A stretch of DNA of 64,000 nt from a virus. This document shows positions 41,852 to 64,000 of the stretch, in pieces. The stretch spans positions 26,794-90,793 of the IMG/VR virus record IMGVR_UViG_3300046171_000110, one strand, 5' to 3'. The notes beneath the pieces were generated by a model. It saw nothing but the letters and a program-made list of their open reading frames with translations, was not told the DNA's origin and made no database searches. Made by a program: the position numbers and the translations under genes. Each line of letters starts with the position of its first letter. Positions within the stretch are counted from its first letter, which is position 1.

Positions 41852-43021
41852 TCATTGAAGGTCACGAATTGAACCTTGTCCTCCAAAGAAAGTTGTCCAT
41901 ACTTCACCCATTGTTCGGTAAAGTCCCTCTTGACCGAGGCGGTTAATGGCGAATGGGTCTCCAGTTTCAATTCCAGACTCAAAGTATTGAGTTGGTTTTG
42001 CAGTACTGTAGTACAAGTAATCAGTGTCTAGCATGTAAACTCTGCTAATTCCGTCTCCTTCGACATCCTTAGATGGAATGATTGGTACACCATTGTAAGT
42101 TGCTACAATGAAACCTGCTTCCATACCCGGTACACCTTTTACACCGTTGTAAGTTGGTACAACACGCTTCTCTTCCATGAATCTTTGTTGACTTTGTAGT
42201 AGTTGTTGAAGTCTCATCAAAGTATCATATCCAGTTAGCATAACCTTTGGATTTCCACCTCTCTGCCAAATCTTTCTGAATAGTTCATCAAAGTGGTCGA
42301 GAGATAGAGTTCTGTTGGTAGGAGTACCAGAAACACCGTTAACCGACATCTCAGCGTTAGCCCATGATGCGTTAGCCTCACGGTCTATTGAATAGATATC
42401 TAAGTCAGTTGCTGCGCTGAGGTGACCTGTTCCGTCTGCGATTGCACTTGTGCTGGTAGTTAGAGAGCCAGCGTGACCAGCGGTGACACGGTCAAGTGAC
42501 TCGATATCATTACCTGCTGGGTTGTCGGCATCTCTAAGTAGCATTTTGTTAATCATCTCTGCGTGGTGCTTACCCATTTCTTCTTTCAAAACTGAGCGAA
42601 TGTCACCTAGACCGTCATCCTTGTCGTTAAGGAAGATTGCTACTTCAGACATGTCGAATGAGTGAGCAACGGTTTTTGGCTTTGCTGCAACATTTTGGAA
42701 AGTTGGCTTTTGAGTTTCAGGTAGAGTACCGTTCTCTGCAATTCCACCGCCAACGGTAGCAGAAGGCTTAGCGGTTACTACACGCCATCCACTTCTGTCC
42801 CATGGCTTCTTAGGTAGGATAGAGAAAGCGTTGAACTCTTGGTTCAACTGACTCCATACTTTTCTACCGTAGATTGCTTGGTATGTTCCTGCTGTTGTGC
42901 TCAATAGAGGAGCATCTGCTTTCAATAGTTCTGAACCAGAGTAGGAATATCCCATGCTTTGTCCAGCACCGTAGTAGTAGCGCTCCATATCATTTACTGT
43001 TCTCATATAATTTCTTGCCAT
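41852..43021 (-). CDS. Major capsid protein, HK97 fold
   Basis: 389 residues with the strongest leader of the block (AAGGAGGAATATGA), as expected for the most abundant virion protein. It follows the protease/scaffold gene. HK97-type features by eye: an N-terminal arm, an ADAPLLSTTAGTYQAIYGRK segment, a P-domain-like long helix (RSVLKEEMGKHHAEMINKML), and a C-terminal region with the A-domain-like GYDTLMRLQQLLQSQQRF and a GDPFAINRLGQEGLYRT end. Position together with fold landmarks makes the call strong. The protease probably trims its N-terminal region. Confidence 0.87.
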   Translation of the reverse strand: MARNYMRTVNDMERYYYGAGQSMGYSYSGSELLKADAPLLSTTAGTYQAIYGRKVWSQLNQEFNAFSILPKKPWDRSGWRVVTAKPSATVGGGIAENGTLPETQKPTFQNVAAKPKTVAHSFDMSEVAIFLNDKDDGLGDIRSVLKEEMGKHHAEMINKMLLRDADNPAGNDIESLDRVTAGHAGSLTTSTSAIADGTGHLSAATDLDIYSIDREANASWANAEMSVNGVSGTPTNRTLSLDHFDELFRKIWQRGGNPKVMLTGYDTLMRLQQLLQSQQRFMEEKRVVPTYNGVKGVPGMEAGFIVATYNGVPIIPSKDVEGDGISRVYMLDTDYLYYSTAKPTQYFESGIETGDPFAINRLGQEGLYRTMGEVWTTFFGGQGSIRDLQ

Positions 43022-47400: not shown

Positions 47401-50039
47401 AACTTTTCCAGTAACATCTTGGTGCCTTCTGGCATCTTGTCACCAAACATCTTAGGCTCAAGTGTAGGAATCATCGACAACTGTTCTTCCAAATCCATAA
47501 GTTTGTTTTCGATTATTTGACTGGCTTCACCCTCTTCTTGAGAGGCGGCGTTTTCTAATTCCTCTATTTGACGCTTAAGATTATCAGCCCTATCTTTGTT
47601 AGCACGACTTCTGTTAACATAGCCCTCACCGTATGTTAACGGTAAGTAAACATCTTCGTTCATCGGTCTATGACCATCGTGAACTTGGCCTATCTCTACG
47701 GGTGTGCCCGGAGGACCAGCAAGATGTTTGTGATGCGCTATCAAGACTGCATCCTTACCAGCATCCTTCTCACGAGCAGCAGGGTCGTGACCGCCCCTGA
47801 AAGTAAACGGATTATGAGTTTTGAAATGACCCGTTATTTTACCTTCTAATTTATCTCTAATATCACCTTGTTCTTTATTAGTCGCCTCTGGCGAGTCAAC
47901 TGCTGCTTCATATTCATTTAGATGTAAGTTAGTGACCGCTGGATTGAGTGACTGAGCGTGTCGAGAAAAGAAATTGTTAGTTCCTACATCTTTATTAAGA
48001 TGGTTAGCAGAACCAGCAGAATGGATGTTAATTGGCTCTTCGGGGTGGGCAAAATCTACTTGTGGTTTATCACTATACTTAGAATCAACAACCTCTATTG
48101 GTCTGGGTAAGAACGGCGCAAATGCGCTTTTAGTATTGAATGTAAGGTGTTCGCCTCCATCACTATCTTCATGTATTCTTCTGTGTTCAAGTTTACCTGT
48201 ATTAGGATTCTTCATAAAAAACAGGCTTTGTTCATACCCTTTGTTATCCATAGTCACTTGGTCAGCAGGATAGCCTTCATCATAAGGTCCGACTTTTTCT
48301 TCTCCAGCCCGCATCTGAGCGAAAGCCTGTTCAAATACATCTAACTCTTCTTCTTCACCCTTGATGCCGGTCCTGAAATGATTTTTACCGTGAAGTAATG
48401 TAGCCTGATGAAGTAACTCAAACAACAATTGTGGATTCTTATTCAGCCCGCCGACTTTGAAAGGCTTACCCCAGTAAGTCGCTAAGGAATCGTTACTTGT
48501 TCCACCCTTAGTATACTCAGGGTCAAAGTCTTCTTCATCTATGTGGGGAGCGTAATGTATACTAGCCTCTCTCCTACCTATCTTACCAGCAAATATATTA
48601 CGAGTTCGATTTATTCTTTCTCGCATTATCTTGTCAACTTCTTCTTGACTGAAAGGGCCTTCTTCTGGGTTCCATCTATCCCTATAAACAGGGTGCTGGC
48701 CGGGAGCGTGTAATCTACCGTTTTTGTCTGCGCCTATCAAAGCAAGCAGGGTATCAAATTCCATACCCATCTCATGACCTAAGATTTGTGCCTCATCAGT
48801 AACTTTAGTTTTCTGACCTGCTCTTTGAATAGGAGTGAATTGTATACTGCGATTAACAACCTTATTTGGTTCATTAGGGTCAGTTGAAAGTTCGTAATTT
48901 ATGTAAGGTCTTTGACTGTAGTCGATTTCAGGTATGTTTTCCATTTCTTGTAAATAGTCCAGCGCTCTTTTGTAACCATTCTCCACAGCGCCAAACGCTG
49001 ACATGTTTTCAACTGCCCCCGGCTCTCTGGCAGCAGATGGCTCTCTTTCTCTGATTGCTTTAGTATTGAAGCCCGGTATGTGAGCCTTACCTACCCAGTG
49101 GTCAAAGATAGGCGCAAATCTATTCTGTATATTCTGCACTATTCTCGGCACCCAATCGTTACCACTCCTAAGTTTGAGAGGGTTGTTTTTATTTGTCAAA
49201 CCAAAACGAGCAATGTGGTCGTATACTTTTTGTCGCTCTTCTGGAGTTGTCCATTCCAAACCAAGCAAGTAATCAGTAAACTTTAGATTGTCTTTCCAGC
49301 CTTCTTTGGCTTCCTCCATATGCTTAATAGCAAGTCTGTGATTTATTTCATCATCATCGAATATACCTTGCTCGTGCATCTGTTGAGTCATCAAACTTAC
49401 AACTGGGTCATTGTTACTTTTCCAATCATTGAAGTGCCTTTCATAGATATCGTGATTGGTCATATCATCGGCCAAATCCCCATAGTTAGCGGTGTTTCTC
49501 AGAAACGCCGATGGACTGTATTCAGCATCTCCACTTTGTGAGTGTTTTCTGTGAAAGTGGTTAGTGATGTCAGCATGGTCACGACTAACACTTTGACCGG
49601 GGGTGTCGCCTACATAATAATTAGCCACATGGTCAGCCATGTTGTCGCCGTGTAAAGGAAACAGACTTGAACCAAAATAGTCAATGTCATGATGAGAATC
49701 GCTGTTAGGGTCACCCGGATTCATTTGGATGTTAGCCCCAGTAAAAGGTTGGCCCGGCTCAGGTGTGACGACTCTCGAAGGTTGTAAAGAGGGGTTCTGT
49801 GCTATTTCACTACCAGACATAAACTGTTCTTGGAACCAATCATGATTGTCTTTGAGGATGATATCTGCCATCTTGAGCAGTGTATCGTCTTGATTGTTTA
49901 AATCATAACCGTGTCTTTGTAAGTTAAGACTAGCAAAGTAGTATTCGGCAGCAGCGTCTGCTTTGCCTATGCCGTCGTAAATAGATTCTATGAAAGTAAA
50001 CTTAGCCCTGTCAAAGGTATCGTAATGACCTTCTCTCAT
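44457..50039 (-). CDS. Very large head-associated protein with ligase-like domain (~1,860 residues)
   Basis: Located between the portal cluster and the protease. ATG 50039 is preferred (GGTGGT leader) over GTG 50048. Most of the chain is charged, His/Asn/Asp-rich and of unknown fold. Residues about 1389-1610 resemble an ATP-dependent DNA ligase core: FTGDWIVSVMPEGERGFVKK aligns with motif I of ligases, but with Met where the catalytic Lys should be. A motif IIIa-like YYIFDVLKYDD and an OB-like AAFDSDEKYNEGDHVRVNV follow. The last 250 residues are charged. Possibly an internal head protein or a minor capsid protein that binds DNA; the ligase resemblance is my inference. Confidence 0.7.
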   Translation of the reverse strand: MREGHYDTFDRAKFTFIESIYDGIGKADAAAEYYFASLNLQRHGYDLNNQDDTLLKMADIILKDNHDWFQEQFMSGSEIAQNPSLQPSRVVTPEPGQPFTGANIQMNPGDPNSDSHHDIDYFGSSLFPLHGDNMADHVANYYVGDTPGQSVSRDHADITNHFHRKHSQSGDAEYSPSAFLRNTANYGDLADDMTNHDIYERHFNDWKSNNDPVVSLMTQQMHEQGIFDDDEINHRLAIKHMEEAKEGWKDNLKFTDYLLGLEWTTPEERQKVYDHIARFGLTNKNNPLKLRSGNDWVPRIVQNIQNRFAPIFDHWVGKAHIPGFNTKAIREREPSAAREPGAVENMSAFGAVENGYKRALDYLQEMENIPEIDYSQRPYINYELSTDPNEPNKVVNRSIQFTPIQRAGQKTKVTDEAQILGHEMGMEFDTLLALIGADKNGRLHAPGQHPVYRDRWNPEEGPFSQEEVDKIMRERINRTRNIFAGKIGRREASIHYAPHIDEEDFDPEYTKGGTSNDSLATYWGKPFKVGGLNKNPQLLFELLHQATLLHGKNHFRTGIKGEEEELDVFEQAFAQMRAGEEKVGPYDEGYPADQVTMDNKGYEQSLFFMKNPNTGKLEHRRIHEDSDGGEHLTFNTKSAFAPFLPRPIEVVDSKYSDKPQVDFAHPEEPINIHSAGSANHLNKDVGTNNFFSRHAQSLNPAVTNLHLNEYEAAVDSPEATNKEQGDIRDKLEGKITGHFKTHNPFTFRGGHDPAAREKDAGKDAVLIAHHKHLAGPPGTPVEIGQVHDGHRPMNEDVYLPLTYGEGYVNRSRANKDRADNLKRQIEELENAASQEEGEASQIIENKLMDLEEQLSMIPTLEPKMFGDKMPEGTKMLLEKLEADDQAYEKLAKQKAAEFPELFDRSLPPDIIEGNLRQFARMLNDYLHQAPSEAHGLSSLTSRDEYDEKEMNENFNPIAEKAKDFAHNSDVVFSLQDFIRAGGDNNLDRYLGGLAEKLGMDPEDYHTQETMRHFYQDIISPYINDLQQQGLREELLNFSMPIQTIGNFAKHHFDTPDADFGATLEQMKKTRGFDNEDASNLITMVNNLRNALVPHRRGMGGAEKAGVDERNYQMGFDIHHAVNPDERVHDYFKEKLAALQELESKAFTGPKRNKVQNDIKNFKAKMINASLVLDKDTKRMLQDKHAEKYGESYRKGKHFASTSKSYRAQQTLDSLIYSDPFVEPGAAPAAVTARLSGRVTKPIEPVGPNAHNIVASTYNAPLYRMEFGHNAPITFDYKISKDGKIDIIPLPEPIRDRLVQPTMAIWRGAGLTDVLYGTDWEKYNIEEHFPAQFKHGRNETNTIAMSEDVNLATLTNPDIIRKEIGKGVPILQPMHRIFDLGDLEHLRGFTGDWIVSVMPEGERGFVKKEDDDVTSTNFTLSDEDKSNFKKVTDNDYHLDVFKTEEGYYIFDVLKYDDKEVHDVPIDDRIKILRGGLEGVENVHVPSASDTRLTDDAGLKVTVEDLQKENEKLLLRDAKSTYMAGELRHPKWVLLSPGNDVVLRVLERRGNGPYTYRLGTGPITKDEELGDRAVEADGEVYMDVGAAFDSDEKYNEGDHVRVNVSNVGESETAEGQKLFTVTGSKIEEEAEGEGLVSQETLGLLAKAEDSQWLCEVYRAGSGIRVVMPQGDVVYKCTQSGQSWTAHSPLASNGYLVRMSESQRPYWAPVAGALLKADVQIAAPAEEQEDKAEVHETEGQGKPLIPPKKIKDSEWWTKQEKEKVLVKGLQLVEKLLKSGVGAVGQSSSGTKGLGIDYATPIESPMGPTNLHDKKTMPDYDVRDMEEDSSIDEETEAKDKPKHMTVPTDEGVLEITEDSAVFRT

Positions 50040-50055
50040 CCATACCACCAGCCGT

Positions 50056-51198: not shown

Positions 51199-52968
51199 CT
51201 AAGCCCCTCTAGGATTACGGGCATTGACTATGCTTTGGCTCGCCTGCTGAACTCCGCTAGGCTGAGGACCTCTTTGTTGAACGCTTGACATAGGTGCACC
51301 CGCACCCATACTAGTTCTGTTTTGAGGGCTTGCAGGACCTCTGTTTCTCAAACCTGCACCTTCTCCACCGGGTTGCCCCATACCCATCTGTGCCTGTCTG
51401 CCAAGCATAGCCGCCCCCTGTGGGCTAATGTTTCGACTTGGCAAAGCACCCGGTGTACCCATGCCACCGCCCATCTGCATACCTCCCATTGGCATTCCGC
51501 CCGGAGGCATTCCGCCCGGAGGTGGTGGTTGTTGAGCAGGGTCATTCGGGTCTGGTTGCTTGTAAATGAATCGAATGTCACGGTTAGCATCTTCCTTAAG
51601 TTCAGGCTTGTAACCCATCATCATCATTCTTTGTGCAATGTTAACTTCCATTTCGTCACGGCGTAGTCGAGTAACTTCATCCTCTTCTTCATTCGGATAT
51701 AGTGTAAGTTGCCAATCACTAACATCCATTTGTTCTACTAGCATTGGGAATAGATGGTCAGTGTATACCTTGTGACCAAATTCAACCGCCCTGTTAGTTA
51801 CCAATATCTGCATACCTTCGTTATTCAGTCCACCAGATTTACCAGTGTCCATCATGAATACATTAGATACACCGTAGAAAGCAGCAATCCTTTGTCGCAT
51901 CTCATCTCTGGCTGCAATATACTGCATCTCTTCAAGGCTATCCATTAATTTAACCCAATTTATACCGCCACGACCACTACCAGACTCAATACCAATCTTA
52001 GGTATATAGTGCGGGTCACGCTCTAACTTTTCGTCGGTTGCTTTGAAAAACGACTTCATAGATTCGAGGTTGTCAGTAGTAACGCTCAATATACCTCTTG
52101 GTATTCTACGCTTTGAATAAGCAGTGTACATGTAGTTATCCATCGCTGTCAAAGTCATAGCCTGTCGCCAAAGAGTAGATACAGGGCTTCGACCATACAA
52201 TTTACTAGGATTGTATTTACTTACATGTATGACTTCTCCCTTAAGATAGTACTGTGTTTTACCAGAACCTGCTGTATTGACATGATGCACATCTTCTAAT
52301 TCATGCCCGCATACGCTACAACTTTTTTCTTCGCCAGAGTACGACTTCACTTCGTCACGATGGATAGGGCATACTTTGAAGCGACCACCTCTTACTCCAC
52401 GCTTATCAGCAATAATTCGCATAAAGATAGGGTCGCCTCTGACAATCTCTTTGATTCTATAGAAAGCCAACTCATTTGTTTCCGGGTCCATGTAATACTC
52501 TTTGATAAGTATCAAAAACCCATCATCAGTGATATTCAAATCGTACTCTATCTCTCTAAGTACATCCATGAAAGACTGTTCCATAGAGTTCCTTTGGTCT
52601 AGTAACCATCTTGGATAAACAAGTTGCTCTGGGTCTGGTCCGACTAACTCAGTATCACCGCAATCTTTGCACTCTTTAACATCGTGTTGAAACTCAGCGT
52701 TACAAGATGTGCACTTTTTATGGAATTTCTTTTCCCAATAGTAGCCTCTGCGGAATATCTCTTGCTGCAAAGTGGACAAGACTGTTCTTAGTATCAGATT
52801 CTCATTAGCCACTGCATAAAGCGCTGGTATAGTAATACCCTGTGCTAATACAGGCTCTTGAATTCCTGTAGTCCAAAGCGGCATCTGCGGCGCTGGAGTA
52901 CTCCTTCTTCTAAACGGGTTAGCCAATGATTCTAAAAATCTACCAATTCTACCTTTTTCTTCTGCCAT
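51199..52968 (-). CDS. Portal protein with two embedded zinc ribbons
   Basis: 589 residues from ATG 52968, which overlaps the upstream stop as TGATG behind GGAGGG. The core reads like an archaeal-virus portal: ITIPALYAVANENLILRTVL, then EVIHVSKYNPSKLYGRSPVS (the portal strand-helix), MRQRIAAFYGVSNVFMMD and FGHKVYTDHLFPMLVEQMD. Two Cys clusters are inserted: C86-x2-C89-x10-C100-x2-C103 and C200-x2-H203-x13-C217-x2-C220. The C-terminus is a low-complexity PPGGMPPGGMPMGGMQMGGG tail. As the portal it forms the ring through which the terminase packages DNA; the zinc ribbons may contact other head proteins. It precedes the capsid genes, as expected. Confidence 0.85.
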   Translation of the reverse strand: MAEEKGRIGRFLESLANPFRRRSTPAPQMPLWTTGIQEPVLAQGITIPALYAVANENLILRTVLSTLQQEIFRRGYYWEKKFHKKCTSCNAEFQHDVKECKDCGDTELVGPDPEQLVYPRWLLDQRNSMEQSFMDVLREIEYDLNITDDGFLILIKEYYMDPETNELAFYRIKEIVRGDPIFMRIIADKRGVRGGRFKVCPIHRDEVKSYSGEEKSCSVCGHELEDVHHVNTAGSGKTQYYLKGEVIHVSKYNPSKLYGRSPVSTLWRQAMTLTAMDNYMYTAYSKRRIPRGILSVTTDNLESMKSFFKATDEKLERDPHYIPKIGIESGSGRGGINWVKLMDSLEEMQYIAARDEMRQRIAAFYGVSNVFMMDTGKSGGLNNEGMQILVTNRAVEFGHKVYTDHLFPMLVEQMDVSDWQLTLYPNEEEDEVTRLRRDEMEVNIAQRMMMMGYKPELKEDANRDIRFIYKQPDPNDPAQQPPPPGGMPPGGMPMGGMQMGGGMGTPGALPSRNISPQGAAMLGRQAQMGMGQPGGEGAGLRNRGPASPQNRTSMGAGAPMSSVQQRGPQPSGVQQASQSIVNARNPRGA

Positions 52969-54275
52969 CACAATCCCTCCGCCCAACTTATGACCGTATC
53001 TCTGTCTACTCCCCACTCTCGGAGAGACTCCTCACCTTTTGATGTTCCGTCTCTGTTGGAGAACTGAACAAATCGCTTTAATTCAGTTTTTCTTACAGGG
53101 TCTTTTTCACCTATGAAAGCCATGACAGCCTTTGCCTGCCTTTCTTTCATCTGCAAATGTGGAGTAATTTTGTTCAGTAATTTAGTCAAATCATCTTTGG
53201 AGTAGAAACTAACACGGTGCTGGCTCCGTTGACCGTCGTTGTACACTTTTTGGTCAACCTGTAACACACCAGCGCCTATGTTCTTGTACAATTGTTCACA
53301 ATGTAATTTACCTCTGTCACCAGTGGCAATAAAACCAGCCCTTGGCTCACCTCTTTCTGTAATGGTAATGTAGCCGTCAGCATCGAGAAAACCTGCTGCA
53401 TAAGCCCAAGGGTCCTTGATTATGAGACCTTCTTTAGACAAACACATGTATTCGCCTTTTCGATGAGCCTTGACGATGTTTATCTCTTCACCATACATGT
53501 TGAGTAGTTTGGATAGTCTGTTAGAATTAAGTCGAGGTACGCCTTTTTCGATAAGGTTCTCAGTGATTGCTCTGGCTGACATAGAGCCGTGATTTGTGAT
53601 TTCTTCCTTTGCTAATCTCATCCATTTCTGTTGTTCTTTGGAAAGGTTGTCGATTTGATGTAATGCATTCTTCCACATCTTACGAGCATCTTGTTTCATT
53701 TCCATAGCGTTGACCCAAGCAAACTTTTCTTCCTCGCCCCAAACATCTTCAAACTCATCTAACTTAGCCAAAGCATCTTCTGCCGCCGCCCAAGAGTTAC
53801 AGGCTCTTACTAAACTACTCTTACGAGTTTCGCCAAACAACCTTAGTGACTTCAAATCTTTTTCACTCACACCCAACTTTCTGATATCTTCTTCGTATTC
53901 AGAGCCCCAGCCAAGTTGTTTGATGGTCGCATCTACCTCCATGCTCTTGATTTTACGAACATTATCTATGATATCATCTATCTCTTCACGGTGTTCTTTG
54001 AATACTCTTCGGGCTTTTCTGAGTTCTTTGACAATCTCAGATGCGCTTTTACCAAGTCTGTCCTCAAACCAACCTTCACCAGTAATACAAAATGGTGCAT
54101 ATACAGTTTCAGGTACATTTTCTGTAGTAAACACTACGGTCTGTGATGCAATTGACTTAGCAATGCTGTCATCGACATGAGGATGAGTAGTAAGACTTGA
54201 TGCGATGATGTTCAAAGTTTCGTGACCCATGTCAACAGATTTAGTAAAGTTTCCAATTCCCAGACTCGGCCACAT
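52968..54275 (-). CDS. Protein with winged-helix and LAGLIDADG domains between terminase and portal
   Basis: 435 residues from ATG 54275 (GGAGAT leader; GTG 54287 is also in frame). The N-terminal ~200 residues are charged and helical with no family recognised. About 205-265 looks like a winged helix (MSARAITENLIEKGVPRLNS). Residues about 288-395 contain AYAAGFLDADGYITI, a single LAGLIDADG motif with its acidic residue intact, followed by the beta-alpha pattern of that fold. It is not an intein: neither neighbour is interrupted. It could be a free-standing homing endonuclease or a LAGLIDADG fold reused for DNA recognition during packaging. Overlap with the portal gene (TGATG) shows tight coupling. 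Confidence 0.75.
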   Translation of the reverse strand: MWPSLGIGNFTKSVDMGHETLNIIASSLTTHPHVDDSIAKSIASQTVVFTTENVPETVYAPFCITGEGWFEDRLGKSASEIVKELRKARRVFKEHREEIDDIIDNVRKIKSMEVDATIKQLGWGSEYEEDIRKLGVSEKDLKSLRLFGETRKSSLVRACNSWAAAEDALAKLDEFEDVWGEEEKFAWVNAMEMKQDARKMWKNALHQIDNLSKEQQKWMRLAKEEITNHGSMSARAITENLIEKGVPRLNSNRLSKLLNMYGEEINIVKAHRKGEYMCLSKEGLIIKDPWAYAAGFLDADGYITITERGEPRAGFIATGDRGKLHCEQLYKNIGAGVLQVDQKVYNDGQRSQHRVSFYSKDDLTKLLNKITPHLQMKERQAKAVMAFIGEKDPVRKTELKRFVQFSNRDGTSKGEESLREWGVDRDTVISWAEGL

Positions 54276-54311: not shown

Positions 54312-55793
54312 TCAGATTGTGAACCAACTAGCCCTCGCTCCTCTGTTGGGCGACACATCACCGAACCACTCATCGAAGCCTTCAAGATAATCATCGAGTG
54401 CAATGATAGAGCCTCTGAACTCTTTGGTAGCCCAGTTAGCCAAAGCCAGACTCATAGCCAAGTCATCGTGACTACCTACAGATTCTAGTCTACCATTCTT
54501 CTGCATACCAAATCTACTGAGTTGTGTTTCGAGAATGCGAGTGAACTCCTTGCTCTTTTCATCACCCCAAGGTGTTTTGATTTGACCTTGTTCAAAAGCC
54601 ATCAGTAAAGACATGAACATACTTTCTTTCTTTTGTCTGGTAGTCATAAATGTCTTGATTGGTATATCACCTCGCATATCCTGCAATTCAGCCGCAAACA
54701 TACGCTGAAAGTTATTACCTTCAAGTTCAATTAGGTCAGGTTGAAATCTATTGTTGAGTAATATGACTTGTCTCTTTTGTGCAGCACCACTCAATCCTTT
54801 CTGATTAAGTACATGCACTAATTGCTTTTCTTCACTACCCGGCAACACCCTAAGTACACTCATAGCAGTGTAGTCAGCATTAGAGTCAGATGCAATCGCT
54901 GGGTCCCAGCCTACAAAGTGCTGACCAAATACTCCAGCAGATTGTCCATTCTCATCGAACTCTTCTTCTGCTTTATCAAGCAATACCAAGTTTTTGTCTC
55001 TGGCTTTCTCTAGCAAAGTCATCGGGAACATACTTGACATATCGTGGATAGGTTCACACAAATACTCACGAGCGAACTTAATCGCTGGCATAGAATCTTC
55101 TCGTACTTTCAAAGCATCAAGTGGCCATCGAGTAGGCCAAAGCGGTTCGCCATTAGGTAAGATAGCCGGATAGGTTTCGACTCTGAATGCTTTTTTATCT
55201 TCTAACTCAGCGTACAAATCGTTGTAACTAAACGGTGTACCGACCATCATCAATCTACCTGTGTGGTGCAGAACCGGAAGTAAAACGGTATAGAACCAGT
55301 CGGCTGCTCTTTGTAACTCAGAACTGGTAGTACCCCAAAGAATATCGTCACATACTACTACATCAGGGTGGAAACCACGAGTAGCACCACCAACCGACTT
55401 AGCCATCATACGACTACCGTTGGTGAACTCGAAGTAAGATTTAGCCCAAGGCTTACCTGTAGGTTTCAATCCTTTTAAAATGTCAGCGCTTTCTATGTTA
55501 TTTCGGATAAACCGCATGTGTTCAAGTGTCTGCTCAAGACTGTGACTGAATATCATAATATGAGTATTAGGTTTGAAAGCGGCCAACCAAAGCGCATAAG
55601 ACATAAAGAATACAGATTTACCGTGGTCACGGCTCGCTTTGACGCAGTATCTTCGGCTTTCATTGAGACCTTTCAACCAGTCTTCGTGATGGTCAGAGAA
55701 CTCGAATTCAAGGATTTCAGTAAAGAAGTACTCGAATGACTTGCGGGACATTTCCACATCCATGTCCCTGACCAGTTCATCGATACCTTCCAC
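54312..55793 (-). CDS. terL: Terminase large subunit
   Basis: 493 residues from GTG 55793 with a GGAGTGAT leader. The ATPase half shows Walker A ASRDHGKS (53-60) and a Walker B-like VVVCDD (D149, D150), followed by a coupling motif VGTP. The RNase H-like nuclease half has GWDPA (D297), the LIELEGN acidic strand near 355-360 and GSHDDLAMSLAL (D443, D444). All motifs of a packaging motor are present, with normal length. It pumps DNA through the portal and cuts it. Flanked by an unknown basic protein upstream and the LAGLIDADG protein and portal downstream, it anchors the head module. Confidence 0.95.
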   Translation of the reverse strand: MEGIDELVRDMDVEMSRKSFEYFFTEILEFEFSDHHEDWLKGLNESRRYCVKASRDHGKSVFFMSYALWLAAFKPNTHIMIFSHSLEQTLEHMRFIRNNIESADILKGLKPTGKPWAKSYFEFTNGSRMMAKSVGGATRGFHPDVVVCDDILWGTTSSELQRAADWFYTVLLPVLHHTGRLMMVGTPFSYNDLYAELEDKKAFRVETYPAILPNGEPLWPTRWPLDALKVREDSMPAIKFAREYLCEPIHDMSSMFPMTLLEKARDKNLVLLDKAEEEFDENGQSAGVFGQHFVGWDPAIASDSNADYTAMSVLRVLPGSEEKQLVHVLNQKGLSGAAQKRQVILLNNRFQPDLIELEGNNFQRMFAAELQDMRGDIPIKTFMTTRQKKESMFMSLLMAFEQGQIKTPWGDEKSKEFTRILETQLSRFGMQKNGRLESVGSHDDLAMSLALANWATKEFRGSIIALDDYLEGFDEWFGDVSPNRGARASWFTI

Positions 55794-56798: not shown

Positions 56799-58991
56799 TC
56801 AAACACCCCCAAAAGCAATCTTAACAGCCTTTACTACATCAGGTTTTACATTCCACTGGTCAGCAACTTTGTGCCAGTCGCCTGTACTTTGATACAGGCC
56901 ATGAACATCTACACTGGTAATACCTAGACTCTTAGCAACTCTTTGGACATCCCAGAATGAATTGATTGATACCTTGTCAGAAGGAAGTAGTTTTCTTACA
57001 GAATCGTCTTGCATAGCATCGAGAGCCTGTACTTGTTCCATCTTTCTCAAAATATCATCGAGCCCTGTGAGAACATCATTAGAAGTAAGCACTGGTGCAT
57101 AAGGGTCTACCAATGGTGGTGCCCCTTCGACATTTCCAACTAGGCTGAGCATAGTTTGTCTAGTTCCTAACTGTTGCATTCGTGCTGGGTCGAATTCACC
57201 ATATCGACCTTGACCTCTTGCAGCGACATCTGCTTCTACCTGTATAGGTCTTCTAATAGCAGGGGAAACAGGAGGTCTTGCTACAGCCACTCTTGAAGGT
57301 GCCTCCGGTTGCCTAGCAACAGAAGCCAAAGGAGGCGCTGTTGGCTGAGGCTGAACAGGAGGTGTCAAAGCAGGCCCTTCTTCTCTTGATTGATTAGTAG
57401 GGGCCATTTCTGTAGGCATCAGTACTCTGCGCTCAAAGTGTTCTGGAATACCAGCCTCGTGAGGCATATCTTCACCAAAGTGAGCAGGTAAACCTGTAGT
57501 AGCAGTTCGTGTAAGGTCTGTCTGTATATCTTGTAATTCAAACGGGTCATGTCCTGTGTAATCTAACATCTGTTGTAACACAGATTCAAGTTTTTCTCTG
57601 AGTCCTTCTTTTGGTTTCGATTTATCAGAAGTGGTAACTTTTGCATTTCTGAATTGTTTAACTGCCTCTAGCATAGCCTGCTCTTTATCCATACCTTGAT
57701 TCATAAGTTGATGAGCAATATGCGACAAATGTCCAACAATTACTTTACCAGCATGATTAGACCTTTTGTGAAACTTATTTTCAATTTCAAATTGACCGAT
57801 TCCTTGCTGGTTTATGTGGTGGTTTAACTCATCATCATTGTAGTCTGTATGAGACCCTGCTATGTTAGCAGTATTATGAATTATATTTTTGAAATAACCA
57901 CCAGCCTGCTTTGAATCTAACTTAGTAACTTCTTGAAACAAGCCAGACATGATAGCACTATTACGCATATCATACAAATCCTCATCAGAATAAGGACTTA
58001 CATCTACGCCTTTGCTTTCAAGCGCTTGTTTAAACTCAGCAATCTTAGCAGCCTTGGCTTCTGGGCCTGATTTTTTACCCCTACCCCCTCTTGGTCCACT
58101 AGTTTCGTAAGCGGCATCTGGAAGAATATTATAAAGTGAGTGTAAGAAAACTTCTGGATGGCTTTGTTGACTAGCCAACGCTTCTCTTGTAGCCTCATCT
58201 CTAAGTCCAATTGGTATATTACCTGTTCTCAAAGCGTGTGTCAATTCATTTTTATCCCAAGCACCTACATTTTTAGAGAGTATACGAGGCTTTAGTCTGT
58301 TATACTTTACATAATTTAAACTATTAATATTTTCAGGAGTATCTAGCCCTATTCCGTTTAGCACTTCTCCTAGTTCCCTGTTCATGTGAAACATACCCCC
58401 GTCTAACCATTTACCCTTCATTGAAAGCGGATGGTCGATGTTAGCCCTATTGAAAGAATAAGTCATCAAAGGAGTCGGGCCGCCCTCGAACAAAGGGTCA
58501 GCCCCTCTAACACTTCTCATGTGAGCAGGGTCAGTATGGTCATACAAGTCACCAGCGAATACTTTTCTCCACAATGGGCTGTCTACATCAGGTAATTTGT
58601 GCTGACTGTCATCTGGATGAGCGTTGTTGTATCTGACAATGGCCGCTTGAACTATACGCTTTGCACCATCCATGTCTACTCCTTTGTCACCATATCTCGA
58701 TACCAAGTCATTCAACACATAATCAATCGGATGCTGACCACCATCTAACTTCTCACCAGTTTCAGGGTGATGGTCCCAAGGAGTATGGTCAGGTGACAAG
58801 TCTTTGGTTAGGCTTTCTTCTGGTGGGTAGCCGGGATGCGGTAGACCACCGGGTGGCGCACCGGGCCCAGTGTAATGCAAGTAAGCAGCCTTGTTGATAA
58901 TCGGATTAAGCACTGATGAAAAATCAGCCCAAGTAAAAACCTGTATTTGTTTTATCAGATAAGATTTAGCGGGCTGGTGAACTCTAAACAT
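56799..58991 (-). CDS. Large virion-associated protein, unknown
   Basis: 730 residues. The first ~330 residues are His/Asp/Pro-rich (HHPETGEKLDGGQHPIDYVL), then helical and charged parts, a Pro-rich linker (PPVQPQPTAPPLAS, RPPVSPAIRRP) and a C-terminal ~60 residues that look like a small helical DNA-binding unit (VQRVAKSLGITSVDVHGLYQ, WNVKPDVVKAVKIAFGG). His/Asn-rich composition is similar to the giant head protein at 44457-50039. Probably a structural protein; start and stop overlap the neighbours by 1 nt or less. Confidence 0.65.
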   Translation of the reverse strand: MFRVHQPAKSYLIKQIQVFTWADFSSVLNPIINKAAYLHYTGPGAPPGGLPHPGYPPEESLTKDLSPDHTPWDHHPETGEKLDGGQHPIDYVLNDLVSRYGDKGVDMDGAKRIVQAAIVRYNNAHPDDSQHKLPDVDSPLWRKVFAGDLYDHTDPAHMRSVRGADPLFEGGPTPLMTYSFNRANIDHPLSMKGKWLDGGMFHMNRELGEVLNGIGLDTPENINSLNYVKYNRLKPRILSKNVGAWDKNELTHALRTGNIPIGLRDEATREALASQQSHPEVFLHSLYNILPDAAYETSGPRGGRGKKSGPEAKAAKIAEFKQALESKGVDVSPYSDEDLYDMRNSAIMSGLFQEVTKLDSKQAGGYFKNIIHNTANIAGSHTDYNDDELNHHINQQGIGQFEIENKFHKRSNHAGKVIVGHLSHIAHQLMNQGMDKEQAMLEAVKQFRNAKVTTSDKSKPKEGLREKLESVLQQMLDYTGHDPFELQDIQTDLTRTATTGLPAHFGEDMPHEAGIPEHFERRVLMPTEMAPTNQSREEGPALTPPVQPQPTAPPLASVARQPEAPSRVAVARPPVSPAIRRPIQVEADVAARGQGRYGEFDPARMQQLGTRQTMLSLVGNVEGAPPLVDPYAPVLTSNDVLTGLDDILRKMEQVQALDAMQDDSVRKLLPSDKVSINSFWDVQRVAKSLGITSVDVHGLYQSTGDWHKVADQWNVKPDVVKAVKIAFGGV

Positions 58992-60808
58992 CAGCCCACT
59001 CTCCCACTACCTCTGGCTGCAAACATAGTGGAAGGCGCTCCCCAGTTCTTAGGGTCGTTCTCCATATCTTCGGTAGCCCCTTCTGGTCGAGTTGTGCTAT
59101 CTTGTCCTTCTCTATGTCCTACTTCTCTGTTCTTACCGTGACCGCCTTGACTGGCAGCCTTGAGTCTACGCTCTTGTCTTTCAGCAGCATCTTTGAGTTG
59201 ACGAAGCAACCTTCTAATCTGAGCGAACTGCATGTAATCTTTTTTCTTCTTAATTTCTTCAAGTTCTGATTTGATGAGTTGTAGTTCTGATTTAGCCAAA
59301 GCCTGCCCTTTAAGTCGAGGCGCTCTAGGTTCTCTGATTGGTAGTCCTGCACTTGCAGCCATACTTGGTGACTTTGGATTGTAAGCGCTCTCTGCACCCA
59401 TAGCGTGTCCAGCAGGCATGACAGGAACATTACCCATCAACTTACGGCGCTGCATTGTACCCATCTGTTGGTCGTAACCTCTTGGGAAAAGCCTGAGTGG
59501 TTGCTTGGTTTCAATACCTAAGTGACTTCTGTGTACTGCCAAAGGTGATTTATCAAGCCCACGCTTTTTTGCAGGTTTCAAAAATCGAGAATGTAATTTA
59601 CTTCGACGACTAGTGGCAGTGCTTATATCCGCACCACCGGGTTGAATTTCATACTGAGGTTGCTTCCAAGATTGGTCTTTAGAACCACCCATATCATCCA
59701 ACCTGCTCTTCATCAAAGTAGACCAAGCATCTTCTATTGGCGAGGCTTTTCCAAACGAACTATATTGGGGTAAACTTGGAAGTCCCATCATTTGAAGCAT
59801 AGCAATTCTGTTTCTTTCAGCATTAGCAACATCTAATTGTTCGGGCGATAATGTGTCTTCTCCAAAACCAAACATCGCTCCCGGTTCAGCCGCCCTTTGC
59901 GCTAAATGTTCTCGGACACTTTGATTCAGGCCGCCCGGCTCTCTAGTGGGGTCAAGAACTTCGTTGGTCAATTCTTCCATTGTAACGCCCGGTGTTTCTA
60001 TACCTGCCATAATTTGAGCCATCAACGCTTTTTTATTAGGATGGTCATCAGGCATATTTTCTTTGATGTTTCCAAATAGTCCAAGAAGCGGTGCAAGTGA
60101 AGGGTCTTCTGCATGAGCAAGTGCTTCGTGAGCGTCAATAGTCGCTATCCTTCGTGCGAGTTCATCAACATCTTCTGTTTTAAAATAAGCATCTTTGGGT
60201 GCCGCACGACCCGGATTGCGGGATGCTAGATTAATAGTAGGGTCGGCCTGTGGTTCAAATGCTCCAAAAGTTAATCCTATCGCTTTGTCGTAATCAGGTT
60301 GTTCGGGGTAGCCCAAAGTTAGTCTTGATTGCTGTCCTGTAAAATCTGGTGAGCGAGTTCGTTGGAGGTCAAATGGATTGTATTCTTCTTGCTTCATTAA
60401 ACTAGACCAAGCATGTGCCATCGGCTCACCTGTAGCAAGCATACCACCCGGTGCTGGCATAGTACCAGTCGCTGCACCAAGGCTAAGATTACCCATGTCG
60501 GGCATCCCTGTCATAGCACCAAACTGTTGACCTTCATTGAATTGGTCGTCCATCATCGGTTCTTCTTCTTCCTCTTCCGGCATCATCGGAGGCATTTCTG
60601 GTTCAGGCTTTGGGATTGATATCTTGAGATGAGGTAAGTCATCGGTCTTTTCTTCTGCTTCTTTTTGAGATTGTTTCTGGTCTCGAAGTTTATCCATTTC
60701 CTTCGGGTCACCAACACCATACTTGTAATCATCATCATCTTTGGTGTAACCAAGATTAGATTCGCTTCGAGGACTGTACATCCTAGTGTCTGAACCTGTC
60801 ATTGGCAT
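58991..60808 (-). CDS. Virion-associated protein with repeated AWxxLMK motifs
   Basis: 605 residues from ATG 60808 (GAGGTGAGAAGT leader; GTG 60817 is also possible). It has a Pro/Met/Glu-rich acidic N-terminus (PEPEMPPMMPEEEEEEPMMD) and contains AHAWSSLMKQEE and EDAWSTLMKSRLDD, two copies of the helical motif seen at the N-terminus of the 8871 gene. The C-terminal 100 residues include a Lys/Gln/Arg-rich helix (IKSELEEIKKKKDYMQFAQI, LRQLKDAAERQERRLK). Reads as a disordered, multi-motif scaffold- or adaptor-like protein. No enzyme fold seen. Confidence 0.65.
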   Translation of the reverse strand: MPMTGSDTRMYSPRSESNLGYTKDDDDYKYGVGDPKEMDKLRDQKQSQKEAEEKTDDLPHLKISIPKPEPEMPPMMPEEEEEEPMMDDQFNEGQQFGAMTGMPDMGNLSLGAATGTMPAPGGMLATGEPMAHAWSSLMKQEEYNPFDLQRTRSPDFTGQQSRLTLGYPEQPDYDKAIGLTFGAFEPQADPTINLASRNPGRAAPKDAYFKTEDVDELARRIATIDAHEALAHAEDPSLAPLLGLFGNIKENMPDDHPNKKALMAQIMAGIETPGVTMEELTNEVLDPTREPGGLNQSVREHLAQRAAEPGAMFGFGEDTLSPEQLDVANAERNRIAMLQMMGLPSLPQYSSFGKASPIEDAWSTLMKSRLDDMGGSKDQSWKQPQYEIQPGGADISTATSRRSKLHSRFLKPAKKRGLDKSPLAVHRSHLGIETKQPLRLFPRGYDQQMGTMQRRKLMGNVPVMPAGHAMGAESAYNPKSPSMAASAGLPIREPRAPRLKGQALAKSELQLIKSELEEIKKKKDYMQFAQIRRLLRQLKDAAERQERRLKAASQGGHGKNREVGHREGQDSTTRPEGATEDMENDPKNWGAPSTMFAARGSGRVG

Positions 60809-60818
60809 ACTTCTCACC

Positions 60819-61514
60819 TCACAATAAATCCATTATGTCTTGTTCTAAATCATCAGAGTTAAGAAGATTCTTTTTGATTCTCTTCCAAGTATCAGGACTC
60901 TCCTTACTTAACTCCACCTTGAGCACATTGATAGTGTTGTTGGCGATGTTCTGTGTAGGCTCTGCCCATTTTTCTTGGTAAGTCGTCAAATCTTTCAAAG
61001 TCTCTCTTACTTCTTTGTGTAACTTTACCATATCAGATATAACTCCATCATCGTGAACACTGCTCTCTGCCATAAACTGTGCCAGTTTACCGTTTAGCCC
61101 TTGTACATTGTTACGAAGTATGTCAACTTCTTGACCAACATTGATGGCTACTACAGCAGTAGCACCTCTTTTTACTAAAGGTTGGAAATGATGCTTCATA
61201 TGTCTGTAGACCAATTGTTCACTGCAATCTAATTCAGTAGCAATATCTTCTGTAGTCCTGTCACCCTCAAAGTAAGCGACTTCTAACTCGCCTCTATCAT
61301 CACTAGTGCAAACTACACAAGAATGATTTGCCCCTTCATGATAACTACCAGCGTGATTCTTCATATGTCGCTCAGCAGTATTGGCTCTCCAGCCCATATC
61401 TTTGTCTAAGATTCGTGGCTCTGCAATCCCGTCAACTATGTTTTGTTCAAGCATATCACGGTCTTCGTGCTGACAGAAAGGACAGGACCGTTTAGTCTGA
61501 CGCTCACCCGCCAT
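60819..61514 (-). CDS. Double zinc-HTH DNA-binding protein, candidate small terminase
   Basis: 231 residues from ATG 61514 (a TTG 61565 start adds 17 residues). It contains a tandem duplication: C11-x2-C14 to RHMKNH (11-54) and C66-x2-C69 to RHMKHH (66-109). Each unit has a Cys pair, an acidic helix, a helix-turn-helix-like segment (RANTAERHMKNH, CSEQLVYRHMKHH) and a final His. The C-terminal half is a coiled coil (VGQEVDILRNNVQGLNGKLA). DNA-binding heads plus a coiled coil, upstream of the large terminase in gene order, fit a small terminase or a late-gene regulator. Not proven. Confidence 0.68.
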   Translation of the reverse strand: MAGERQTKRSCPFCQHEDRDMLEQNIVDGIAEPRILDKDMGWRANTAERHMKNHAGSYHEGANHSCVVCTSDDRGELEVAYFEGDRTTEDIATELDCSEQLVYRHMKHHFQPLVKRGATAVVAINVGQEVDILRNNVQGLNGKLAQFMAESSVHDDGVISDMVKLHKEVRETLKDLTTYQEKWAEPTQNIANNTINVLKVELSKESPDTWKRIKKNLLNSDDLEQDIMDLL

Positions 61515-61574
61515 ATATGGCCCATAGCATTTACACGGATAACCCTTTTGAACAAGAAGCCCCAAGCAAGGTGC
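61510..61574. promoter_or_regulatory. Divergent intergenic region with palindromic TATA-like element
   Basis: Between the leftward zinc-HTH gene and the lone rightward gene lies GCCATATATGGC (61510-61521), an exact 12-bp palindrome covering the leftward ATG. ATATAT could act as an archaeal TATA element for the rightward gene, giving a transcript start some 25 nt later, upstream of its ATG at 61575. A binding site for the zinc-HTH protein itself is another reading. Both are unproven. Confidence 0.3.
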
Positions 61575-61910
61575 ATGAAACTGCCTAGAATACGACCCAA
61601 AATTATGGGCGTACCCGTTTCTATAGAAACTGCTAGAAGTTTAGCAAAGGCTGGTAGAGACATAGCAATGAGAAGGTATGTTCCAGATGATGTAAAAAGA
61701 AGCAGAATGGAACACTGTATGATATGTCCAAGTTGGGAACACAGTAGTAACAGGTGCTTAGAGTGCGGTTGTCAAATGAGAGTAAAAACTAGCCTTACAT
61801 CAAGCGAATGTCCACTTGGTAAATGGGGTAGACTAGTGATACTAGATGCTGGAGATTCTGCTGTAGATGCCACCGAGCATAAAGAAAGCGCCGAACAAAC
61901 CAGCCACTAA
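61575..61910 (+). CDS. Six-cysteine zinc protein, the only rightward gene in the late block
   Basis: 111 residues from ATG 61575 (61605 is a possible later start). The core has C48-x2-CP, then C61-x2-C64-x-C66 (CLECGCQM), a Lys-Thr-Ser stretch and C79-PLGKW. This RCxxCGCxMxxK...CPxGKW pattern recurs in many tailed-phage small proteins, so it is accepted as a real gene although its strand is opposite to the surrounding late genes. The last 23 codons overlap tail to tail with the membrane-protein gene on the other strand. Function of the family is unknown to me. Confidence 0.75.
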   Translation: MKLPRIRPKIMGVPVSIETARSLAKAGRDIAMRRYVPDDVKRSRMEHCMICPSWEHSSNRCLECGCQMRVKTSLTSSECPLGKWGRLVILDAGDSAVDATEHKESAEQTSH

Positions 61911-62084
61911 GTAAGCCATAGTGTCACTACTTAGATTATCAGCACCAGTGACTAATATAAGTCCAAGAGTAACTATAATTGCTAGTAACTGAACCATAAC
62001 CATGTCGATTATGACGCTCTTGACTGGTGAAAAAATACTCATAGCCGAACTTGAAAAATTGTAAAGTGGATTATTGTCTATCAT
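61842..62084 (-). CDS. Small membrane protein with two transmembrane segments
   Basis: 80 residues with a GGGATGAGATA leader, starting as TAATG with the previous gene. It has two hydrophobic helices (VIIDMVMVQLLAIIVTLGLI and DTMAYLVAGLFGAFFMLGGI) joined by a short polar loop (VTGADNLSSD) and a short N-terminal tail. Two small TM helices suggest a membrane-anchored role, such as a holin-like or egress protein, but nothing specific supports that. Its 3' end overlaps the opposite-strand gene by 69 nt. Confidence 0.72.
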   Translation of the reverse strand: MIDNNPLYNFSSSAMSIFSPVKSVIIDMVMVQLLAIIVTLGLILVTGADNLSSDTMAYLVAGLFGAFFMLGGIYSRISSI

Positions 62085-62728
62085 TATCTCATCCCCATCA
62101 TTCTACCCATGAAACTACCCGCAGCAGTACCTGCTCTGTTCATGAATCCCTCGTCTTGTAAAGCAGCGTTCAAAGCACCTCCCATCATAGACTGCTGTGC
62201 CATTGCTGCAATCTGCTGTTGTTGCATCTCAGCATTCTGTATATTTTGTTGGCTTGTCATTTTGAGGGCATTGAATTGGTTAGACACATTCTCTCCACTC
62301 ATAGTCTGTAGATTCTGAGGTAGACTTGTCACATCCATCTGCATAGTGCCGCCATCTTCATCAATAGTAAACTTAGCAGACTTGAGTATTTCTAATACCG
62401 AAAAACTAACTAGGTCATTAAGTAACTGTAAAAGAGTTTGCATCTGTGCACCTACAATAAATCGGTCAGCGGGAGCAAGGCTCTTCATCAAAGCCAGTAG
62501 TATATCAGTTTCACTAGGTGGCATCATGGGTTGACCCATCATACCTTGTTGCATACCAGCGCCACCCATCATACCTGACATAAAGGGATTTTGGGCAGCC
62601 TGTTGCATCATTCCGCCTTGTGGAGCAAACGGGTTTTGAGTCTGACCCTGTACAGGCATTTGTCCCGGCTGACCTACGCCTAAGTTTAGTGTTCCGCTGC
62701 TTTGCTGATTATTTCCGAATAGTCCCAT
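62084..62728 (-). CDS. Met/Gln/Gly-rich protein, unknown
   Basis: 214 residues with AGGTGATATA before the ATG. The N-terminus has two NPF elements (QTQNPFAPQGG, QNPFMSGMMGG) and Met/Gly/Gln-rich low complexity; the middle (DRFIVGAQMQTLLQLLNDLV) is helical. The C-terminus returns to Met/Gln-rich helices. It is coupled (TAATG) to the membrane protein and lies 8 nt from the upstream zinc-binding gene. Probably a module with these genes; no family recognised. Confidence 0.65.
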   Translation of the reverse strand: MGLFGNNQQSSGTLNLGVGQPGQMPVQGQTQNPFAPQGGMMQQAAQNPFMSGMMGGAGMQQGMMGQPMMPPSETDILLALMKSLAPADRFIVGAQMQTLLQLLNDLVSFSVLEILKSAKFTIDEDGGTMQMDVTSLPQNLQTMSGENVSNQFNALKMTSQQNIQNAEMQQQQIAAMAQQSMMGGALNAALQDEGFMNRAGTAAGSFMGRMMGMR

Positions 62729-62736
62729 TATATCAC

Positions 62737-63762
62737 CTATTGTTGAGGGAGGCTCATCTGTTCTGATTGTTCCAAGGTGTTTTGATTGATAACACCATTG
62801 GTCGTGTTATTTACTGCCATGCCAAGTGTGCCTCCAGCACTTGGTGCAACATTTTGAGTAATTCCTAAATTAGCAATCGCATCACTGAGTTGGGGGTTGG
62901 TTGCTAATATCTCTTTTTGGAACAGTCTCAAATCGAAATATATAGCAGTAATGTCGTTGATTCCAGTTTCTGGATTTTTATAATGTATCAGGCTGATACC
63001 GGACTGTGTCTTAGAATCTTTTTCTAATTCCATAAAGAAAGGCTCATACTTTTTTAGGAACTCTGGAGTGTTGTCTTTCTTTTTGACTATAGAAATTGGT
63101 ACTGCTACTGTAGACACTCCCTTTTTCATCATTTCTTTAAGTCCAGTTCTAGTTTTGTTATGGTCCTTATCTGCCTCTAATTCCCACTTACACAGTAGAT
63201 GATACAAGTGAAGATGCTCAGGGCAGTATGTACCCTTCATTTTTCTACCATTGGTGACTTGCTCTCTAGCAACAAATGGTTCTGGGGTCTGCGTTACTGG
63301 GTTTCTCCAATATAAATCCCACAAACTTTGACCGCTTTCTTCATCGGTAATCTTAGCATACAAATTGTCGTATTTGATGAGTTCTTCGCAATTACATCCA
63401 TCAACTACGCACAAGTTACTTTGTCTATTGTATCGGTATTTACGACCCCATATCCATCTGACAGGGTTATACCAAGCCCGCTTTGTTGGTGTTAATAACT
63501 TCCTAGCCTGCTTGATGTCTTGCTTTCTTGCTTTTCTTGGGTCAGGGTTCCTGCTTGGATAAAAGTTAACTTTCGGTACTTCGATATTCTGCTTAACTGC
63601 GACTTCTTTCATACCTTGTTGAGCAGCCTGCATCTCAAGTAACTGCTCATGACTAGCATTACCTTGTTGCCCTAAAGCAGCCAAATGAGCCTGACTCATA
63701 TTCGCTAAGTTCGCATCGCCTTGTGGCACTCTTCCATATCCTCCAAATCCCCAATTGTTCAT
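62737..63762 (-). CDS. Cys/His-containing protein of unknown function
   Basis: 341 residues, AGGTGGTAAG leader. The N-terminal 60 residues are Gln/Ala-rich (LANMSQAHLAALGQQGNASH). The central part has LCVVDGCNCEEL, then YCPEHLHLYHLLCKW about 60 residues later, a plausible zinc site (C-x5-C-x-C with C-x2-H). A mixed alpha/beta region follows (VSTVAVPISIVKKKD, SLIHYKNPETGINDITAIYF). It lies next to the GTPase-like gene and the Met/Gln-rich gene. Function unknown. Confidence 0.65.
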   Translation of the reverse strand: MNNWGFGGYGRVPQGDANLANMSQAHLAALGQQGNASHEQLLEMQAAQQGMKEVAVKQNIEVPKVNFYPSRNPDPRKARKQDIKQARKLLTPTKRAWYNPVRWIWGRKYRYNRQSNLCVVDGCNCEELIKYDNLYAKITDEESGQSLWDLYWRNPVTQTPEPFVAREQVTNGRKMKGTYCPEHLHLYHLLCKWELEADKDHNKTRTGLKEMMKKGVSTVAVPISIVKKKDNTPEFLKKYEPFFMELEKDSKTQSGISLIHYKNPETGINDITAIYFDLRLFQKEILATNPQLSDAIANLGITQNVAPSAGGTLGMAVNNTTNGVINQNTLEQSEQMSLPQQ

Positions 63763-63770
63763 CTTACCAC

Positions 63771-64000
63771 CTAACTAAGTAAATCTAACATCGTATTTTC
63801 TACATTCCAACCTATTTTTGTTGCCATCATACCACGCTTTGTAGGTACTCCGGCCTTTTGAAGTCTAACTAAATCCTCTCTAAAGGGGTCGAATATCCTA
63901 TGTTCACCCAATCTTTGCTGCTGCCAAAGGACATTTGCTTGGTCATCCCACCATTGGTCAGCCTTATTTGCGACCAACATTATCAATTTAGGTGCGTATT
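63771..64000 (-). CDS. Ras-like small GTPase, C-terminal part (5' end outside window)
   Basis: Open to the right edge; only about the last 75 residues are visible. PKLIMLVANKADQWWDD contains the guanine-specificity motif NKxD after a hydrophobic strand (G4). About 50 residues later MMATKIGWNVENTMLDLL matches the G5 position (S/A-x-K) with the following NVExxxxxL helix typical of Ras-like GTPases. The P-loop and switch regions are outside the window, so GTPase assignment rests on G4 and G5. A TTG at 63986 is not the likely start because coding continues upstream. Co-location with membrane and unknown late genes hints at virion assembly or host membrane interaction. Confidence 0.65.
   Translation of the reverse strand, partial: YAPKLIMLVANKADQWWDDQANVLWQQQRLGEHRIFDPFREDLVRLQKAGVPTKRGMMATKIGWNVENTMLDLLS

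Follow-up and report, generated by a model that had tools for sequence, protein, structure and literature searches.

Whether a tailed virus encodes a small GTPase of its own is the question raised by the right edge of a 90793-base IMG/VR virus contig. The window analysed here is a stretch of 64,000 nucleotides, bases 26794-90793 of that record. Its right edge is the contig end, so nothing further to the right exists in this assembly. The partial frame at that edge had been taken for a Ras-like GTPase in the first-pass annotation because of its NKAD (G4) and ATK (G5) motifs. Both motifs are confirmed in the frame, which encodes VANKADQWWDD and MATKIGWNVENTMLDLLS (Table 1). The four letters NKAD prove little for a GTPase on their own, and the 75-residue fragment, searched alone, had no Pfam match.

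Table 1. Positions of the GTPase gene, its neighbours and other genes; coordinates are those of the window unless a contig is named.
Feature	Position	Strand	Remarks
GTPase, C-terminal third	63771..63998	-	75 codons, cut by contig end; G4 NKAD, G5 ATK, last helix
GTPase, full length	L002:9509-10228; L005:1119-1838		239 aa, read from these two contigs
Cys/His-rich protein	62737..63762	-	341 aa, CVVDGC...TYCPEHLHLYH, probably zinc-binding
Met/Gln-rich protein	62084..62728	-	214 aa, conserved core and low-complexity tails
TM80, membrane protein	61842..62084	-	80 aa, two predicted TM helices, conserved VDM(I/V)MVQ
Cys-rich small ORF	61575-61910	+	zinc-ribbon-like; counterpart at L062:3857-4195 (-)
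HTH protein	60819..61565	-	248 aa, Cys/His motif, C-terminal coiled-coil-like part
Low-complexity protein	58991-60817	-	
Low-complexity protein	56799-58991	-	
Large terminase subunit (TerL)	54312..55793	-	
Portal protein	51199..53016	-	
1863-aa ORF	44457-50048	-	
Major capsid protein (MCP)	41852..43021	-	33-34% identical to Druskaviridae MCP
4411-aa ORF	12700-25935	-	

The 75 residues were scanned against IMG/VR, which yielded 58 relatives with the same C-terminus, 64-100% identical. Two contigs, L002 and L005, are at least 99.9% identical to the window over its final 6704 bases and extend past its edge; such identity over this length indicates that both contigs and the window come from the same virus population. 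The gene read from them encodes the complete protein (MSALGGSALVGGVVFAKELWHYWKPRKVGVYGPTTVGKTT...VVYSSDIGGEERFWNLW...LVANKADQWW...MMATKIGWNVENTMLDLLS), with a P-loop GPTTVGKTT, a switch DIGGEERFW, NKAD and ATK all behind a hydrophobic N-terminal helix. A P-loop GxxxxGK[ST] and a switch DxxG, the motifs to be sought once the gene was extended, thus both exist in the full gene, and the GTPase reading survives.

Thirteen positions, G32, G37, K38, T39, T40, T60, D94, G97, N175, K176, A177, D178 and T224, are invariant in 123 distinct relatives. The P-loop (G1) spans residues 32-40, with its two glycines, its lysine and both threonines fixed, and the G4 motif, [NT]KxD, is NKAD in every sequence. 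T60, about 20 residues past the P-loop, is a candidate for the G2 threonine, in a part where the structure model is poor. In G3 the DxxG is invariant, and at the place of Ras Gln61 the 123 sequences divide into 66 with Gln, 45 with Glu and 12 with Asp, the window's own virus having Glu. The G3 of the Ras superfamily is given as DxxGQ (PMC4316618), a form from which the 57 of 123 sequences with Glu or Asp depart. G5 reads AT[KR] in nearly all relatives, not SA[KL]. The viral protein also has a 70-residue segment separating the P-loop from switch II, in which TTPGEM and RTxH are invariant motifs of its own, and a long insert preceding NKAD. Most of the GTPase sequences are still at least 54% identical to the farthest clade, and pairwise comparisons against the genes of the window put the conservation of the GTPase about level with that of TerL and clearly above that of the Met/Gln-rich and TM proteins. 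As read from these alignments, complete G1, G3, G4 and G5 motifs are kept under strong selection and a GTPase chemistry is strongly supported; the protein would be expected to hydrolyse GTP.

The relation to known GTPases is remote. The viral protein stays below the curated cut-offs of Pfam Roc, Arf, Ras and RagA and of NCBIfam small_GTP, and a profile search of the PDB with it gave nothing significant. The viral profile matches Asgard GTPases with E values of 2.6e-6 to 2e-4 in 4 of 148 genomes, a misplaced viral contig apart, and the two of those matches that were checked against Pfam are Arf. Profile comparison by hhalign gave 97.1% for Arf, 97.1% for Ras, 97.8% for an Arf-like FWxLW set and 83% for Rag, against 0.3% and 0.8% for the controls TerL and the Cys/His-rich protein, all as single comparisons of shallow alignments. 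An AlphaFold2 model shows alternating strands and helices but is weak (mean pLDDT 65); with it, the best PDB matches in Foldseek are small GTPases, at TM-scores near 0.4-0.5. In a viral structure library the best Foldseek matches are giant-virus GTPases, and the 23 matches at E<=0.001 include no protein of a tailed virus. We conclude that the viral protein is a distant homolog of the Ras/Arf-type GTPases that would work like them, and it is a new, distant branch. No named subfamily is assigned, because DxxGQ and SAK are not kept across the relatives and no curated cut-off is passed. The earlier label of a Ras-like GTPase holds, borne out by full-length relatives, invariant motifs and remote homology, with the refinement that the closest cellular matches are Arf-type rather than Ras-type.

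The best cellular matches of the viral profile are Asgard Arf-type GTPases (PF00025), namely L394 and the FWxLW-bearing L395-L398. They share with the viral protein the G motifs, the xGG past the switch Asp and FWxLW in the switch II region; the GGQxxFWxLW of several Asgard matches is close to the viral GGExxFWNLW. The viral protein differs in scoring under the Arf cut-off and in having the 70-residue segment, the insert before NKAD and the hydrophobic N-terminus. The Gly2 that is myristoylated in the Arf family and the amphipathic helix behind it have no counterpart, as position 2 is not a conserved Gly and the helix is hydrophobic with a low moment. The Asgard proteins L395-L398 carry a further, N-terminal domain that is conserved and contains Cys. 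Among the small GTPases of prokaryotes, MglA and Rup are single-domain switches like the viral one (PMC4316618). However, no MglB/roadblock partner is seen beside the viral gene, and G3 is TVPGQ or GTPGQ in MglA and DxGG[EQD] in the virus. Small GTPases of the Rab/Ras type are likewise encoded by giant eukaryotic viruses (for example Mimivirus, Klosneuvirus and Bodo saltans virus), and that of Mimivirus has been proposed to act in virion membrane biogenesis (PMC11915834). Those proteins are host-derived and belong to viruses of eukaryotes, whereas the present one is a single core gene of a tailed archaeal lineage, sits in a fixed cluster and shows remote similarity.

The virus is a good match to the magroviruses, judged by published feature descriptions rather than against the reference genomes ON649702 and OR863078. 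Published magroviruses carry PolB, a ligase and an ERCC4 nuclease (PMC10160649) as well as a chaperonin, and have opposed replication and morphogenesis clusters (PMC10768690); their ligase was read together with the prohead protease (PMC7318539). The window encodes an S78 protease, PolB, a PD-(D/E)XK nuclease, an ERCC4 nuclease and a chaperonin, with a clamp loader and an SNF2 helicase further left. The features of Magrovirales are all present: PolB, chaperonin, ERCC4 nuclease, a ligase-like domain by the prohead protease, opposed strands and a Druskaviridae-related MCP. The 1863-aa ORF adjoins the prohead protease; close to its C-terminal end, an ATP-dependent DNA ligase domain is weakly matched. 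The 4411-aa ORF ends in a ConA-like lectin domain (Laminin_G_3) and is possibly a host-binding fibre. Few viruses of marine archaea are as common as the magroviruses, whose hosts are presumably the Poseidoniales. To our knowledge none has been cultured, and for this reason their assembly and exit from the cell are unknown.

The GTPase gene belongs to an operon-like cluster of six, just upstream of the HTH gene and TerL. A profile search of 166 loci gave the order TM216, TM84, GTPase, Cys/His-rich, Met/Gln-rich and TM80, followed by the HTH gene. In all 120 of the 120 loci that remained after removal of duplicates and had flanks long enough, the seven genes are alike in order and strand. The median gap is 0-8 bp between neighbours among the six and about 270 bp from TM80 to the HTH gene; in the window the spacing from GTPase to TM80 is 8 bp, 8 bp and then a 1-bp overlap. 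With the Cys/His-rich gene as anchor, the GTPase was found in 69 of 73 new loci, the other four starting at or near a contig end inside the Cys/His-rich gene. With TerL as anchor, it was found in every locus with a full 10-kb upstream flank and in two with slightly shorter ones; TerL loci without the GTPase are on contigs cut before reaching it. The gene preceding the cluster varies between loci. The constant order, the loci found from both anchors and the variable preceding gene together indicate a cassette that is fixed and core in the group. The first-pass annotation had placed the GTPase at the head of a run with a zinc-binding, a Met/Gln-rich and a two-TM protein and had proposed to look for their co-conservation. 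The three neighbours are the Cys/His-rich, Met/Gln-rich and TM80 genes, and they are kept with the GTPase at each of the 120 intact loci, which supports the conserved run, with the refinement that TM216 and TM84 precede the GTPase off the contig.

None of the five partners scored above threshold against PHROGs, Pfam or NCBIfam. The Cys/His-rich protein gave a fair model (pLDDT 76) with no PDB match at E 0.001 and no known fold. A canonical TTTATA box was not found before the first gene of the cluster. The HTH gene ends the conserved block, and its product, with weak HTH and TerS matches, is probably the small terminase subunit (TerS), a function assigned by inference. The two long low-complexity proteins between it and TerL vary strongly in sequence and keep their position. 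The zinc-ribbon-like ORF lies between TM80 and the HTH gene, and its counterpart in L062 is at the same place. In some viruses the GTPase and Cys/His-rich genes are separated by an insert (L061 3708-3911, L044 ~9960-10640), which in L061 looks by eye like a small AbrB-type protein.

Outside this group the GTPase was sought in several collections. A tblastn search of 50,697 phage records found no relative, PHROGs holds no family for it, and HCTV-1 (about 98 of 103 kb) and vir519, which have the same capsid protein type, contain by profile neither the GTPase nor any module gene. The ICTV profiles and the ICTV summary mention no GTPase, and neither does that portion of the magrovirus and archaeal tailed-virus literature covered by a word search; key magrovirus papers lie beyond that portion and may contain an earlier annotation.

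The five partners have no known homologs, so it is only hydropathy that points to a membrane role. Of 121 distinct TM80 sequences, 108 have two predicted TM segments. TM216 has a single segment above threshold in 115 of 123 sequences, along with another hydrophobic stretch that is weaker, and a long charged C-terminal tail rich in Met, Gln and Arg; TM84 has one predicted segment in 75 of 117. The N-terminal helix of the GTPase shows mild hydrophobicity, with KD values of about 1.0-1.5 across 18 residues, mostly under the TM threshold, and its G6, A8, V10 and G11 are invariant. This invariance would fit helix packing better than simple lipid anchoring, as far as hydropathy can tell. That the module is late and acts at the host membrane, as the annotation had suggested, we likewise infer from gene order and the hydrophobic segments.

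We interpret the GTPase as a small, very divergent Ras/Arf-type G protein and magrovirus core gene that would work with the products of its five neighbours at a membrane. To the reading as a whole, that is, the G protein, its partners and a membrane switch for late assembly or egress, we give about an even chance. The GTPase would be held at the host membrane by packing of its N-terminal helix against the small membrane proteins in a physical complex. GTP/GDP cycling could then switch the assembly or opening of this viral membrane complex, which may be built together with the virion proteins and serve late assembly or egress. Seeing that a core GTPase is clustered with three membrane proteins, and that such a switch was not found in the catalogued phages and relatives searched, magroviruses probably use GTP to control a step at the host membrane. 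More tentatively, and with distinctly less confidence, they might depend on a six-protein membrane machine under their own G protein for assembly, egress or a membrane compartment. If true, this would be a first for head-tailed viruses, whose known core genes include no small-GTPase switch. With a core G protein that is always encoded next to the same membrane proteins, magrovirus assembly and exit gain a concrete, testable entry point. The history of Arf-like GTPases, for the most part told for Asgard archaea and eukaryotes, also gains a viral branch.

A different use of the same parts would be the delivery of membrane proteins, in which the GTPase would act like SRP receptor beta, the Met/Gln-rich protein would serve as a chaperone, and the two would insert the membrane proteins of the virus. 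SRP receptor beta has a hydrophobic N-terminal segment straight before its G domain, an architecture like that of the viral GTPase, and the latter is encoded alongside three small membrane proteins and a Met/Gln-rich partner that may resemble chaperones for hydrophobic segments. Yet no profile match exists between the GTPase and SRPRB, the Met/Gln-rich protein matches no chaperone family above threshold, and the hosts possess their own insertion machinery, which makes this use unlikely. Equally improbable to us is a role in entry, with the six proteins packaged in the virion and forming a membrane channel or switch that delivers the genome to the next cell. Ejection proteins are usually found among the tail genes, which are far away here, and small separate TM proteins would be unusual virion parts, although the cluster is on the strand of the morphogenesis genes, next to TerS, TerL and portal, and matches TerL in universality.

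The switch reading itself would fail if a former GTPase were retained as a nucleotide-bound or empty scaffold. The variable Gln61 equivalent and an ATK or ATR in place of SAK could be so understood, but all residues contacting nucleotide, Mg and guanine are invariant, which a scaffold would not need, and we rate this lower still. On the last reading the gene would come from a host and have ended up in the contig, or be an auxiliary gene met now and then that plays no part in the viral cycle. This reading draws on three relatives in contigs binned with cellular genomes and has next to no likelihood, being already contradicted by the same viral cluster on those contigs and by the presence of the GTPase in all examined viruses of the group whose flanks are long enough. 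Host contamination was rejected on the same ground, the viral cluster being present at every locus. The three contigs, L060, L061 and L062, are the only ones found by a pattern scan of 84,980 genomes and were binned into Maricaulis, Asgard and Cytophagaceae MAGs. That of L062 matches an IMG/VR virus record (L112) in length (18,054 bases) and gene sequence, so the placement of all three is probably a binning error.
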